Part shown: positions 1 to 3,876 of the stretch, in pieces
Numbering within the stretch: position 1 is the stretch's first letter
Layout: the number at the start of each line of letters is the position of its first letter
Virus record (IMG/VR): IMGVR_UViG_3300025137_000177
Span: 1 to 30,016 of that record
DNA from: a virus
Length of the DNA: 30,016 bases
Reading direction: 5' to 3' (one strand)
The notes under the pieces: model-generated
The model's input: the letters and a program-made list of their open reading frames with translations, nothing else
Database searches by the model: none
What the model was told of the DNA's origin: nothing
Translations under genes and position numbers: made by a program

Positions 1-497
1 CCAGAATACAAGGTGAACAACAAGGTTGGCTAGACGTTGATGGGATTGACGTTAAAACAATCCATTACATTGATTTCAAAACAGACAAAAAAATGGTCGA
101 TTTAAAAACCAGTTATCCAAAAAGAAATCCAATCAAAAAAGATGGTACTTTCACTTTTAGAATACCAAAACCATTATCTGTTCCAACAAGAAATCAAGTT
201 ATACAACAGGCAGTTTATTGGAAAGCAACAGGATTAAGTCCTGCTGTATTATCTGTAACGCCAGAGGGTTTTAATATTATAACGCCAGAAACAAGCGATT
301 TATTAAAAAAAGATAGCCTTGAATATTATTTTAACTTTATAAGACAGCGTTGGCTTGTAAGGCAGAACCTACTTAAAAATGCAAACGGTTCATGGAATAC
401 TTTGTTTCAATTAGTTGAGCCAGACTTAGATAGAATAAAAGCTTATCATGGAAACGACATTCACAAAATCGCAGAATTACAATGGGGGATAAAATGA
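1..497 (+). CDS. PD-(D/E)XK (RecB/Cas4-like) nuclease, C-terminal part
   Basis: The reading frame is open to the left edge (first full codon at position 3), so the start lies outside the window. The visible part carries the signature of a PD-(D/E)XK nuclease: VDLKTS (D and K being the metal/catalytic residues) near residue 33, and a downstream QAVYW, matching the QxxxY motif of RecB/lambda-exonuclease-like enzymes. Such phage enzymes resect double-stranded DNA 5' to 3' to give single strands for annealing. It is followed within a few bases by a coiled-coil protein, a possible annealing protein and an SSB-like protein, which fits a recombination role. It could instead be a Cas4-like nuclease of unknown role. 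Family confidence is good; the exact substrate is inferred. Confidence 0.75.
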   Translation, partial: RIQGEQQGWLDVDGIDVKTIHYIDFKTDKKMVDLKTSYPKRNPIKKDGTFTFRIPKPLSVPTRNQVIQQAVYWKATGLSPAVLSVTPEGFNIITPETSDLLKKDSLEYYFNFIRQRWLVRQNLLKNANGSWNTLFQLVEPDLDRIKAYHGNDIHKIAELQWGIK

Positions 498-676
498 AAA
501 TAGATGATTATAATGATTTACAGCAACAAATTGATGTTATGACTATTCATCTTAAATCTTTAAATGAAAAGGTTGAAAAGCAAACCATAGAGATAAACAC
601 GTTTGTTAATTTGTTAAATACTCAGCAAAGATTAAAAAGAGAAATCGAAAACATAAGGAATAAAGACTATGAATAG
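494..676 (+). CDS. small coiled-coil protein of the recombination operon
   Basis: I do not recognise this 60-residue protein. It is rich in Leu, Glu, Lys and Gln with heptad-like spacing (for example LKSLNEKVEKQTIEI) and is probably one long helix or coiled coil. An ATG at 482 is in frame, but 494 is preferred: a GGGGG ribosome-binding stretch lies 5 bases upstream, and this ATG overlaps the TGA of the nuclease gene (ATGA), which suggests translational coupling. The 3' end overlaps the next gene by 8 bases. It may be an accessory or dimerisation factor for its neighbours, but nothing in the sequence shows this directly. Confidence 0.65.
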   Translation: MKIDDYNDLQQQIDVMTIHLKSLNEKVEKQTIEINTFVNLLNTQQRLKREIENIRNKDYE

Positions 677-1379
677 AAGGCAAGTTCCAAATCATCTGGT
701 CGAGTTAATTGGTGAAATAGGTATGAATGTTCAAGACGCTACATGGGATTGTCATGGTACGCCTGTCATATATCACGATGCATTAGAGAGATTGGCAGAA
801 CATTTAGGAATTAAATTTTCTCCACCAGTTATCATAGAAAACAACTCAGCAGACAGAATTGTTGCTTTGATGGTTGAAGGTTTTTGCGGTGAGAACCATG
901 CGTGGTCGATTGGTGAATGTAGCCCTGCAAACATTAAAAATGCTTATCCATATGCAATGGCAGAAAAACGTGCAAAGGATAGGGTCACTTTAAAGCTTAT
1001 AGGTGCATCAGGTTTTGTTTATTCAGAAGAAGAAAGCGATGATTTTAAAAATCCTAATCGTTTTGAAAACAAGCAACAGTCACAGCGACAGCCAGAACAA
1101 AAAGAAAAACCTCAAGCGCAAGGTGAAGAACCAGAAGGATTTTCATTTATTAAAGATATAAATTCTGATGAAGATAAAAGAAATTTAGAATCTTACCAAT
1201 TAAAAATACATGAATTTCCTTGGCATATAGACAAGTTTGTTACATATGCCCATGCAAATACATGGTGGAAACATGAAGAAGTTTTCTTGATGGAAATCAA
1301 AGAAAAACATCCTAGAGATTTTTGGATAATTCAAAAACAATTTCGTGAAAAATGGGCAACATTAAAAACAGGAGTGTAA
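669..1379 (+). CDS. possible single-strand annealing / recombination protein
   Basis: The 236-residue protein has a conserved-looking N-terminal domain (about 1-125), a Gln/Glu/Pro-rich linker (about 135-158) and a Trp-rich C-terminal domain (about 160-236). The segment YPYAMAEKRAKDRVTLKLIG (about 93-112) followed by a YSEEE stretch recalls the alanine/arginine-rich helix (AETRAxxRAL type) of ERF/Rad52-like phage annealing proteins. No single residue proves that family, so the call rests on this resemblance and on position between a PD-(D/E)XK nuclease and an SSB-like protein, the usual place for an annealing protein. AAGGA lies 9 bases before the ATG. A different DNA-binding role is possible. 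Confidence 0.45.
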   Translation: MNRRQVPNHLVELIGEIGMNVQDATWDCHGTPVIYHDALERLAEHLGIKFSPPVIIENNSADRIVALMVEGFCGENHAWSIGECSPANIKNAYPYAMAEKRAKDRVTLKLIGASGFVYSEEESDDFKNPNRFENKQQSQRQPEQKEKPQAQGEEPEGFSFIKDINSDEDKRNLESYQLKIHEFPWHIDKFVTYAHANTWWKHEEVFLMEIKEKHPRDFWIIQKQFREKWATLKTGV

Positions 1380-1380
1380 A

Positions 1381-1686
1381 ATGCCAACATATAATAAAAT
1401 CGTAGAAATAACTTTGTTCGAACCAACAGAGAAAAAAGATACATCGCCTATCTGTCAGAATACAACGAAAGTAGGTATTTGGAATAAAGTAACAAAACAA
1501 ATTGATGGGCAACAAATTGTTTTCGATCCAAATAAAAAATATTCCTTTCAAGTTTATGAAAGCCAATATAAAACTGATAGAGGAAAGACTAAATTTAATA
1601 TGCGTATTTCAGAAGTTATCGATGATGGGTCAAGTTATGGTTCTGGGTTTACACCTAATGTAAACAAGTTTGACGCACCGTTTTAA
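1381..1686 (+). CDS. SSB-like small protein with DAPF C-terminal tip
   Basis: This 101-residue protein starts 1 base after the previous stop, with AGGAG 7 bases before the ATG. Its body alternates beta-type segments (VEITLFEP, GIWNKV, KYSFQVYESQ, FNMRISEV), consistent with a small OB-like barrel. It ends in a Gly/Ser/Asn-rich flexible stretch and the terminal residues KFDAPF. SSB proteins end in an acidic tip plus a Pro-Phe pair (DDDIPF type) that recruits partner enzymes; DAPF is a good match to its last part. With the nuclease and the possible annealing protein it would complete a recombination module. The OB fold is inferred, not demonstrated. It is the last gene before a hairpin region. 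Confidence 0.5.
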   Translation: MPTYNKIVEITLFEPTEKKDTSPICQNTTKVGIWNKVTKQIDGQQIVFDPNKKYSFQVYESQYKTDRGKTKFNMRISEVIDDGSSYGSGFTPNVNKFDAPF

Positions 1687-2228: not shown

Positions 2229-2522
2229 CTATGCTTTTTTCTTGGCTTTGTTGCGCTTGCTTATTGCTCTACCTTTTGCTCTTGCATCGGCTTTGCTACT
2301 TGCACCCCACGCTCTAAGCGCAAGCAATAATCTGGTTGGCTTCCCCTTGCTGTCCCTCTCTGGTCCTTTGTTACCGCCCATTCTTCGCAGAAAAGACCCA
2401 CGCCTTGGATTATCGCCTTTTTTAACAGGTGCTTTTAGATTTGCGCCTGTAGTTCTTTTAAAATGCTCTCTACCAGCCTGATTAAGACCGCCACTAGGGT
2501 TTTGGAATCTTTTAGCTACCAT
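2229..2522 (-). CDS. conserved phage protein, DUF6321-like
   Basis: The 97-residue protein contains GGLNQAGREHFKRTTGANLK near the N-terminus, then a Pro-Val-Lys stretch, SFLRRM, and KGKPTRLLLALRAW. This series matches, as far as I can recall it, a small family frequent in marine phages and cyanophages (DUF6321 type). Its role is unknown to me. It is strongly basic and ends in a Lys-rich tail. The ATG overlaps the 3' end of the lysozyme gene by 11 bases, with GAGAG upstream inside that gene, so the two are probably co-translated. The open frame on the opposite strand here is a shadow. Confidence 0.7.
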   Translation of the reverse strand: MVAKRFQNPSGGLNQAGREHFKRTTGANLKAPVKKGDNPRRGSFLRRMGGNKGPERDSKGKPTRLLLALRAWGASSKADARAKGRAISKRNKAKKKA

Positions 2523-2961
2523 CTATCGCTCTCATTCTATCTGCTAGTCTGTTAGCTCTATTAGGCGTTTGTTTTGCCCACCGACTATCTAACATCTGTA
2601 CCGAAGCTTCTAACCAATTTGAATTTAACACTGCATCCCTCATATTACTGAAAGCACTAAGCCTTGGTCTGCCTAATTGAAAACACATATTAGCAATGAT
2701 TCTTTGTGCTTCTTCTGGGAAGTCATAAAAGTTTGGGTATATTTTTATACAGTCATTTATAACTACTGCAACGTCATGTTCAAAAGCTTCATGCACTCTT
2801 GTTGAACTTACCTCTGTTCCAATAGGTTGACCATATTCGGGGTCATCTTGTGTTATTAAATGACCAATCCCAAATGTCTCATGGTCAAGAGAACATTTAT
2901 AAATTCTATTTATCTTGCCTTCATCGGCTTCTATTTCTAATCTAAGTTTATCTATTTCCAT
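2512..2961 (-). CDS. T4-type lysozyme (GH24 endolysin) with Cys at the Asp20 position
   Basis: The 149-residue protein matches T4 lysozyme along its length: DEG near the N-terminus, TFGIGHLIT (about 29-37), FQLGRPRLSAF and the C-terminal SRWAKQTPNRANRL. It would cut the N-acetylmuramic acid to N-acetylglucosamine bond of peptidoglycan at the end of infection. The catalytic Glu11 equivalent is E14 and the Thr26 equivalent is T29. The residue at the Asp20 position (9 after E14, 6 before T29) is Cys23. No signal peptide is seen, so it should depend on a holin. The ATG at 2961 is chosen over an upstream GTG (3000) because it fits the T4 length and lies just inside the end of the small gene at 2948-3067. 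Confidence 0.9.
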   Translation of the reverse strand: MEIDKLRLEIEADEGKINRIYKCSLDHETFGIGHLITQDDPEYGQPIGTEVSSTRVHEAFEHDVAVVINDCIKIYPNFYDFPEEAQRIIANMCFQLGRPRLSAFSNMRDAVLNSNWLEASVQMLDSRWAKQTPNRANRLADRMRAIDGS

Positions 2962-3067
2962 TTTTCTTAGGTTTCTTTTTGAGTTTTTTAAAATCAGCAC
3001 CAGTAATTTTGTTGCGTGGTTCGGCTACTCTTGCAATTTTCTTTTGTCCAGCAGATAACTTTTTCAT
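2948..3067 (-). CDS. 39-aa basic miniprotein upstream of lysozyme
   Basis: The frame starts with an ATG at 3067, preceded by AAGGA. It encodes MKKLSAGQKKIARVAEPRN, then KITGADFKKL and a Lys-rich end. Its stop overlaps the first codons of the lysozyme gene (start 2961), suggesting translational coupling. The sequence looks like a compact, conserved-type phage protein rather than random reading (ordered charged helix, ITGADF motif), but I cannot assign a function. Confidence 0.65.
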   Translation of the reverse strand: MKKLSAGQKKIARVAEPRNKITGADFKKLKKKPKKNGNR

Positions 3068-3078
3068 TGATTTTCCTT

Positions 3079-3333
3079 TTATGAACGTGGGTTTTTCTTT
3101 TTAGCTGTTCGTGTTCTAGCAAAAGAACGGTTTTTTGACGGATTTTGTACCTTTAGATTACTTCTTCTGTTGTCAGTAGGATTGCCATTCTTATGTGCTA
3201 CATCCATACCTTTTACTTTTACACCACTTTTAACTAGCTTTGCCCTTGCTGAATTACGCGATGCTCTACGTTTTTTCTGGATTTCAGAAGCGTGGTATCG
3301 GTCATACTCTTTACGATAATCGCGCTTTGGCAT
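3079..3333 (-). CDS. HNH-like small phage protein
   Basis: The 84-residue protein has an Arg/Lys-rich N-terminal half and a core DVAHKNGNPTDNRRSNLKV followed by NPSKNRSF. The order Asp-x-x-His ... Asn-x-x-Asp-Asn ... Asn-Leu resembles the second half of an HNH nuclease motif. A first-strand His pair and zinc-binding cysteines are not evident, so activity is uncertain. Small proteins with this pattern are common in phage late regions and are usually annotated as HNH endonucleases. The start overlaps the previous gene (TAATG), and AAGAAG lies upstream. It may nick DNA during packaging, or be an inactive DNA-binding relative. Confidence 0.6.
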   Translation of the reverse strand: MPKRDYRKEYDRYHASEIQKKRRASRNSARAKLVKSGVKVKGMDVAHKNGNPTDNRRSNLKVQNPSKNRSFARTRTAKKKNPRS

Positions 3334-3458
3334 TACTTCTTGCCCTTTTTCTTTAACATCGCAGTTAAAACTTTAGCCTGACCAGCGTGTGATTTAGAAG
3401 CTTTACGCAAACCAGAAGCTACTTTTTTTACTTTTGCTTTTTGTTTTGGATTCATCAT
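3333..3458 (-). CDS. 41-aa Lys-rich miniprotein
   Basis: The frame starts at ATG 3458, overlapping the TGA of the upstream gene (ATGA). A second in-frame ATG follows directly at 3455. Its TAA overlaps the ATG of the HNH-like gene (TAATG). It encodes MMNPKQKAKVKKVASGLRKA, then SKSHAGQAKVLTAM and a Lys-rich end. It is an amphipathic, very basic short helix-forming protein. The double overlap is strong evidence that it is translated; the function is unknown. Confidence 0.65.
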   Translation of the reverse strand: MMNPKQKAKVKKVASGLRKASKSHAGQAKVLTAMLKKKGKK

Positions 3459-3700
3459 TTCTTTTTACTCGCTTTCTTTTTCTTGCCACCTCTAATTAAA
3501 TCAGAATCAGCTTTTCTTGCTCCACCTTTACCAGTAGCAAAACTTCTTACTCGACCAGCCGCCCAAGCATGAGCAGAAACTTTTGGTCTACTGCCACTAG
3601 AATAGTACGCACCTAAACCTCTTTTATAAACCTTGCCTAATGTTGCTGACGATATGCCAGATGATTTAGAATACTTTGCTATTACTGCCGACTTGCTCAT
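3455..3700 (-). CDS. conserved small phage protein, DUF5824-like
   Basis: The 81-residue protein contains YKRGLGAYYSSGSRPKVSAH, then AWAAGRVRSFATGKGGARKAD, and a Lys-rich C-terminus. The YxRGLxAYYSSGSRP...HxWAxxRVxSF...GARKADxDL pattern is familiar from many marine phages (DUF5824 type, from memory). The function of that family is not established to my knowledge. The gene overlaps both neighbours by the ATGA arrangement, and AAAGGA lies at the end of the upstream gene as ribosome-binding site. Confidence 0.7.
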   Translation of the reverse strand: MSKSAVIAKYSKSSGISSATLGKVYKRGLGAYYSSGSRPKVSAHAWAAGRVRSFATGKGGARKADSDLIRGGKKKKASKKK

Positions 3701-3876
3701 CCTTTGCTCCTTTGTTTACTGATTCTGTCCATCATAGCTGGGGTAAGTTTTCCTTGCCTGTAAAGTTTGGCTGTCCTCTTTATCTCCGCTTCTCTTGCCT
3801 TTGGATTCTTTGCTCCACGAACATATTTTTTTGGTACACCAGATTTAGTCTTTGCTACTTTTTTAAATTTTCTCAT
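3697..3876 (-). CDS. 59-aa basic phage protein
   Basis: The frame runs from ATG 3876 to TGA 3697. The ATG overlaps the TGA of the 3TM-holin gene and the TGA overlaps the ATG of the next gene, both as ATGA. It encodes a basic protein with KSGVPKKYVRGAKNPKAREAE and KLYRQGKLTPAMMDRIS. The first segment resembles short proteins seen repeatedly in marine phage lysis/late regions, but I cannot name the family with certainty. A plus-strand frame over this stretch is a shadow. Confidence 0.65.
   Translation of the reverse strand: MRKFKKVAKTKSGVPKKYVRGAKNPKAREAEIKRTAKLYRQGKLTPAMMDRISKQRSKG

Follow-up and report, generated by a model that had tools for sequence, protein, structure and literature searches.

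A probable phage single-strand-annealing operon with a candidate Rad52-like annealing protein and exchangeable annealing cores

The window, a virus record of 30,016 bases from a marine phage, carries at its left end four + strand genes that very probably form a phage single-strand-annealing recombination operon of the λ-Red/YqaJ type, with an unclassified annealer of the Rad52 superfamily and exchangeable cores. Gene order, homology, a core swap and a shared tail were shown, and a predicted fold of the core adds to these. The original prediction of a recombination module with a non-standard annealing protein and an extra coiled-coil component is thus supported by gene order, swap and context, the coiled-coil gene being conserved. 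The features are:

3-497, + strand: putative nuclease fragment, C-terminal 164 aa (reading frame, invariant active-site residues, annotated distant homologues)
494-676, + strand: coiled-coil protein, 60 aa (heptad score, homology to the L086 protein)
669-1379, + strand: candidate single-strand annealing protein, 236 aa (AlphaFold2 model, structural matches, slot, core swap)
669-1043, + strand: putative exchangeable annealing core of the 236-aa protein (invariant residues of alignment A2)
1164-1376, + strand: C-terminal helical tail of the 236-aa protein (shuffle-tested scores against L086 and a third family)
1381-1686, + strand: SSB-like candidate, 101 aa, with a DAPF end (alignment A5, model, fold searches, weak PHROG SSB match)
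1696-1773, + strand: two perfect stem-loops (arms of 13 and 10 nt, folding z -6.5)

All four reading frames were verified. The start of the coiled-coil gene overlaps the nuclease stop by ATGA, the coiled-coil and 236-aa genes overlap by 8 nt, and the 236-aa and 101-aa genes lie 1 nt apart, which bears out the earlier description of overlapping or abutting genes. The order of all four genes is kept in related phages, excluding chance reading frames. None of the four proteins has a significant match to Pfam or PHROGs, and searches of the window proteins and family alignments against Pfam, PHROGs, NCBIfam and PDB sequences returned nothing significant.

Relatives of the 236-aa protein were found in 111 viral stretches, the best 80 of which share 34-58% identity with it, and the viral similarity lies mainly over the first ~125 residues. 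Four annotated phages encode a relative, the copy in Pseudanabaena phage Pam5 being labelled 'recombination protein'. A further 123 bacterial genome stretches contain relatives, the best 80 mostly from Methylobacterium and Microvirga; genomes of Methylobacterium, Methylorubrum and Microvirga often encode window-type relatives (L177-L256), and one MAG with a relative is labelled Euryarchaeota (L179). Alignment A2 reveals a conserved core motif, NAYPYAMAEKRAKDRVxLKL, with W26, G30, H36, E40, G82, E83, N91, Y93, A96-R101, D104, R105 and K109 invariant. Neither the window protein nor its family alignment found anything in Pfam, PHROGs or NCBIfam, and the window protein matched none of the known annealer family profiles. 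Neither the window protein nor any of 28 homologues matched SSAP_Sak (PF06378). The curated cut-offs of the RecT/Redbeta, ERF and Rad52 Pfam profiles were not reached, the sole contact being that of one of the 28 homologues with RecT (E 0.0064).

An AlphaFold2 model of the 236-aa protein, based on 28 family members from viral loci only, predicts a core of helix, three strands and helix, followed by a disordered linker and a helical tail. The core spans approximately residues 1-125 and the tail residues 167-233, with core blocks at pLDDT 81-98 over residues 1-120 and above 90 for most of the core. When the model was compared with a set of solved structures, the best fits were RAD52 entries (Z 7.5-7.8 over about 102 residues; 3.6 Å for the Z 7.8 match), Mgm101 (Z 7.2) and Sak of phage 80alpha (8pq8; Z 7.0), each with an alignment spanning nearly the whole core. 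These are, however, tied with dsRNA-binding domains (dsRBDs), one of which (5npg) gave the best single match, Z 8.1 over 81 residues, with many further dsRBDs following; Z scores in this range may reflect no more than a shared arrangement. Foldseek searches against solved structures were weak (best E 0.024, no PDB match at E ≤ 0.001), and matches in a viral predicted-structure library include proteins named SAK3, ERF and RecT. Given the tie with dsRBDs and the weak Foldseek result, the predicted fold fits a Rad52-type annealer but is by itself undecisive.

A natural exchange of the core was observed in the operon of contig L086, which contains a nuclease 60% identical to that of the window together with a coiled-coil gene and a homologue of the 101-aa protein. 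The annealer slot of L086 is occupied by a 212-aa protein that matches Pfam SSAP_Sak (E 3e-33) and is Sak-like in PHROGs. At the DNA level, L086 and L088 are 86.5% identical over the nuclease and coiled-coil genes (1-838) and 85.7% identical over the tail, the 101-aa gene and beyond (1219-1898), while the stretch in between is unalignable. The L088 annealer has a core of the window type, and the L086 and L088 annealers are alike in their tails only (81 of 115 aligned residues). From 838 to about 1230, L086 is 95-97% identical over most of the stretch to the Sak-type operons L258-L263; these come from other phages and contain the 101-aa homologue, together with the nuclease in the two that reach that far. 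L086 matches L088 outside and L258-L263 inside, and is therefore a mosaic of two parents. One crossover falls where the coiled-coil gene ends and the other within the linker ahead of the tail, so that one core exchange is visibly placed at this linker.

A census of 79 loci with both a 101-aa homologue and a slot gene upstream of it found 22 window-type, 55 phrog_11717-type and two Sak proteins (the latter on one contig). The nuclease tree (79 rows) requires a minimum of four changes of core type and places the window type in two separate clades. The window tail aligns with the L086 tail at a score of 107 (≤ 64 in 5000 shuffles) and with the phrog_11717-type tail at an hhalign score of 38.9 (≤ 16.5 in 200 column shuffles). 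These homologies across families indicate that the tail accompanies three types of core, yet not in every operon: the tail of the L016 clade (four window-type operons) has no detectable relation to that of the window. A profile comparison of the window and phrog_11717 cores gave no core match.

The phrog_11717-type protein occupies the annealer slot at L106:1448-2149 and at 54 other loci, with the motif SALENCETSAIGRALASIGL. phrog_11717 is listed in the library as of unknown function; by its position this protein likely represents another annealer family.

The wider genetic context fits an annealer role of the window-type protein. The genes upstream of distant members of the window-type family encode a YqaJ nuclease in all five cases tested (E 3e-6 to 4e-16), and other neighbours include canonical SSBs, NinB and Gp157. 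A strict acidic-PF tip was found on the immediate downstream gene in 8 of 27 representatives, against a background of 10/1469 in which those 8 are counted. The nuclease and SSB neighbourhood of Rad52-superfamily annealers is thus present for the window-type family; ssap-ssb is a standard module, and Erf-ssb, Rad52-ssb and DUF1071-ssb modules, with Gp157 near erf, form a familiar annealer pattern (PMC8093625). Small proteins of 81-99 aa directly follow the annealers in L010, L011, L035, L265, L270 and Phage C72C1 (L332:3621-3878), most of them acidic-PF-tipped, and constitute another SSB-like family at this position. Taken together, slot, core swap, neighbours and predicted fold support the proposal that the 236-aa protein is an unrecognised and highly diverged annealing protein; we consider it a candidate annealer from a widespread, unclassified branch of Rad52-like annealers.

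The dsRBD matches allow for a different reading, in which a dsRBD-like fold makes the 236-aa protein a regulator that binds dsRNA or dsDNA, its recombination neighbours being incidental. We consider this very improbable: the alignments with RAD52 and Sak take in the N-terminal helix and, at about 102 residues, extend beyond those with the dsRBDs, the DUF1071 (Sak3) annealers have themselves been described with a dsRBD-like domain (PMC8093625), and the core is exchanged at the domain level with that of a Sak annealer. Slightly more improbable still is a core that serves as a mediator of recombination and, in the manner of Orf/NinB, loads host RecA or a host annealer without itself annealing. 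While a mediator would presumably also adjoin a nuclease and an SSB, NinB is found near the window-type protein in L085, not replacing it, and the slot is held by the annealer family Sak in L086 and L258-L263.

The role of the 101-aa protein is less clear-cut. It had been predicted to carry an SSB-like tip and an OB fold. The DAPF ending is real, but alignment A5 shows family tips that are mostly DDDIPF or similar, in contrast to DAPF, MPQF, MPLM and RRL in the window clade, and the acidic tip is lost in several sister phages; on this comparison DAPF is a degenerate or eroded version of the wider family's acidic DDDIPF tip. The OB fold was not borne out: the model (mean pLDDT 65) has three confident strands only, with no OB fold predicted and no match in fold searches. 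A pattern search with the 101-aa protein alone found no relatives, which were recovered with an alignment. Both the eroded tip and the model would agree with an adaptor or annealer regulator that does not bind ssDNA, a reading that is otherwise compatible with the annealing operon proposed here and that we hold to be possible, if the less probable one. Against it, the gene sits at the SSB position and its relatives bear DDDIPF tips, which is compatible with an SSB role; 2 of 28 relatives have a weak PHROG SSB match (E 0.0036); and the family profile weakly resembles small phage proteins, one of them annotated 'single strand DNA binding protein', at a score above column shuffles (25.6 versus ≤ 17.3). 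Moreover, neither the window nor any of seven related, possibly incomplete records yielded a canonical SSB (PF00436). The 101-aa protein is thus plausibly SSB-like.

The nuclease reading frame is open at its 5' end since the record starts within the gene; relatives are about 290-300 aa long, and the 5' part of the window gene lies beyond the record edge. The fragment contains both VDLKTS and QAVYW, which had been read as a PD-(D/E)XK motif. This reading is supported by an alignment of 18 family members, in which E5, D24, D33-L-K35 and Q68 are invariant and follow the active-site pattern E...D...(D/E)xK...Q. No Pfam or PDB sequence match was found for the family. Pelagibacter phages encode distant homologues (25-30%) that bear the annotation 'putative nuclease', and in several of these phages they precede an annotated 'putative single strand-annealing protein'. 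The product of 3-497 is accordingly described as a putative PD-(D/E)XK-type nuclease. In contig IMGVR_UViG_3300029319_000214 the same nuclease gene is present at either end with a few differences (L097 and L104), which suggests that the genome is circular or permuted and that its assembly drew on a mixed population. On a sister contig, a C5 cytosine methyltransferase-like protein is encoded upstream of the nuclease (L108:1644-2858, - strand), in a stretch that is expected to be missing from the window.

The coiled-coil protein would be 64 aa long if begun at an upstream ATG, 482. Its heptad score exceeds all 300 shuffles, and it aligns with the L086 protein at a score of 90, reached by none of 3000 shuffles. 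A heptad-rich gene lies immediately upstream of the annealer in most of the 22 operons checked, which include the window, Sak and third types. Its proposed status as an accessory subunit therefore stands as far as a conserved operon gene is concerned, while binding to a partner is inferred.

In the mechanism that we propose, the nuclease would resect double-stranded ends, and the Rad52-like core of the 236-aa protein would coat the exposed single strand and pair it with a complementary strand, the 101-aa protein handling single-stranded DNA. The helical tail would dock the core onto the nuclease, the coiled coil and the SSB-like protein. Such docking would explain why cores can be exchanged so long as the tail stays, the annealing core behaving as a separate evolutionary cassette swapped with Sak-type and phrog_11717-type cores. 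In Redbeta, the C-terminal domain is required for recombination and for exonuclease contact, and heterologous pairs fail (PMC5052646). Whether three or more core families, of which two lack a described function, share one docking tail and the same partners, making the pairing engine changeable and possibly allowing escape from host factors that attack annealers, is to our mind an evenly balanced question. That annealers are in an arms race with hosts is no more than a suggestion, drawn from published work on defences directed at phage recombinases (PMC8093625, PMC11846896).

A PD-(D/E)XK nuclease adjoining an annealer, often with an SSB-type gene, is shared with the lambda Red/RecET and YqaJ-SSAP systems. 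The window differs from these in that its annealer core and nuclease families are absent from Pfam, a conserved coiled-coil gene intervenes, and the core is swapped between annealer families on a common tail. SSAP_Sak/Sak3 proteins (PF06378, DUF1071) occupy the same slot in a sister phage as a single protein with a homologous tail, and the predicted window core resembles the Sak 80alpha structure; in contrast, it has no detectable PF06378 profile match and possesses other conserved motifs. The predicted core topology is also similar to that of the eukaryotic RAD52 and Mgm101 N-terminal domain, with about 100 residues superposing, although identity is about 10% and the window protein, a small one from a phage, differs in its C-terminal part. 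In Pelagibacter phage HTVC024P (gp20-gp21-gp22) and Phage C72C1 (CDS45-47), a homologous nuclease is followed by an annealer and then a small protein, that of C72C1 being annotated SSB with the tip DDEIPF, but the annealers belong to other families and no coiled-coil gene lies between nuclease and annealer. Searches of the literature for annealers of Pelagibacter phages yielded nothing of use.

Phage annealing modules and shuffled annealer C-terminal domains are already known (PMC8093625), and C-terminal shuffling between distinct annealer families had been proposed for Firmicutes SSAPs (Steczkiewicz 2021, PMC8093625). Here, by contrast, the swap shows in the DNA itself, breakpoints included, both parents are represented by close relatives, and the moving part is the core. 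Within the libraries and papers searched, a domain swap traced in DNA to identified relatives of both parents is new, as are an annealer family missing from profile libraries and, by implication, a function for phrog_11717. Two putative annealer families, the window type and phrog_11717, are identified by position and swap, and are not so described in public profile libraries; both provide new candidates for recombineering. The operons also represent a natural experiment that separates the annealing core from its presumed partner-docking tail, and with such chimeras the source of partner specificity within an annealer becomes directly testable.

Immediately past the operon, the window has three consecutive predicted stem-loops (1687-1800), the two with perfect stems being located at 1696-1733 and 1740-1773. 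Sister phages possess hairpins of differing sequence at the corresponding position, and the stem-loops are a probable transcript end. Further along, short and very basic proteins (97, 84, 81 and 59 aa) are clustered on the - strand (2229-3876) around a lysozyme-like gene (2512-3000).
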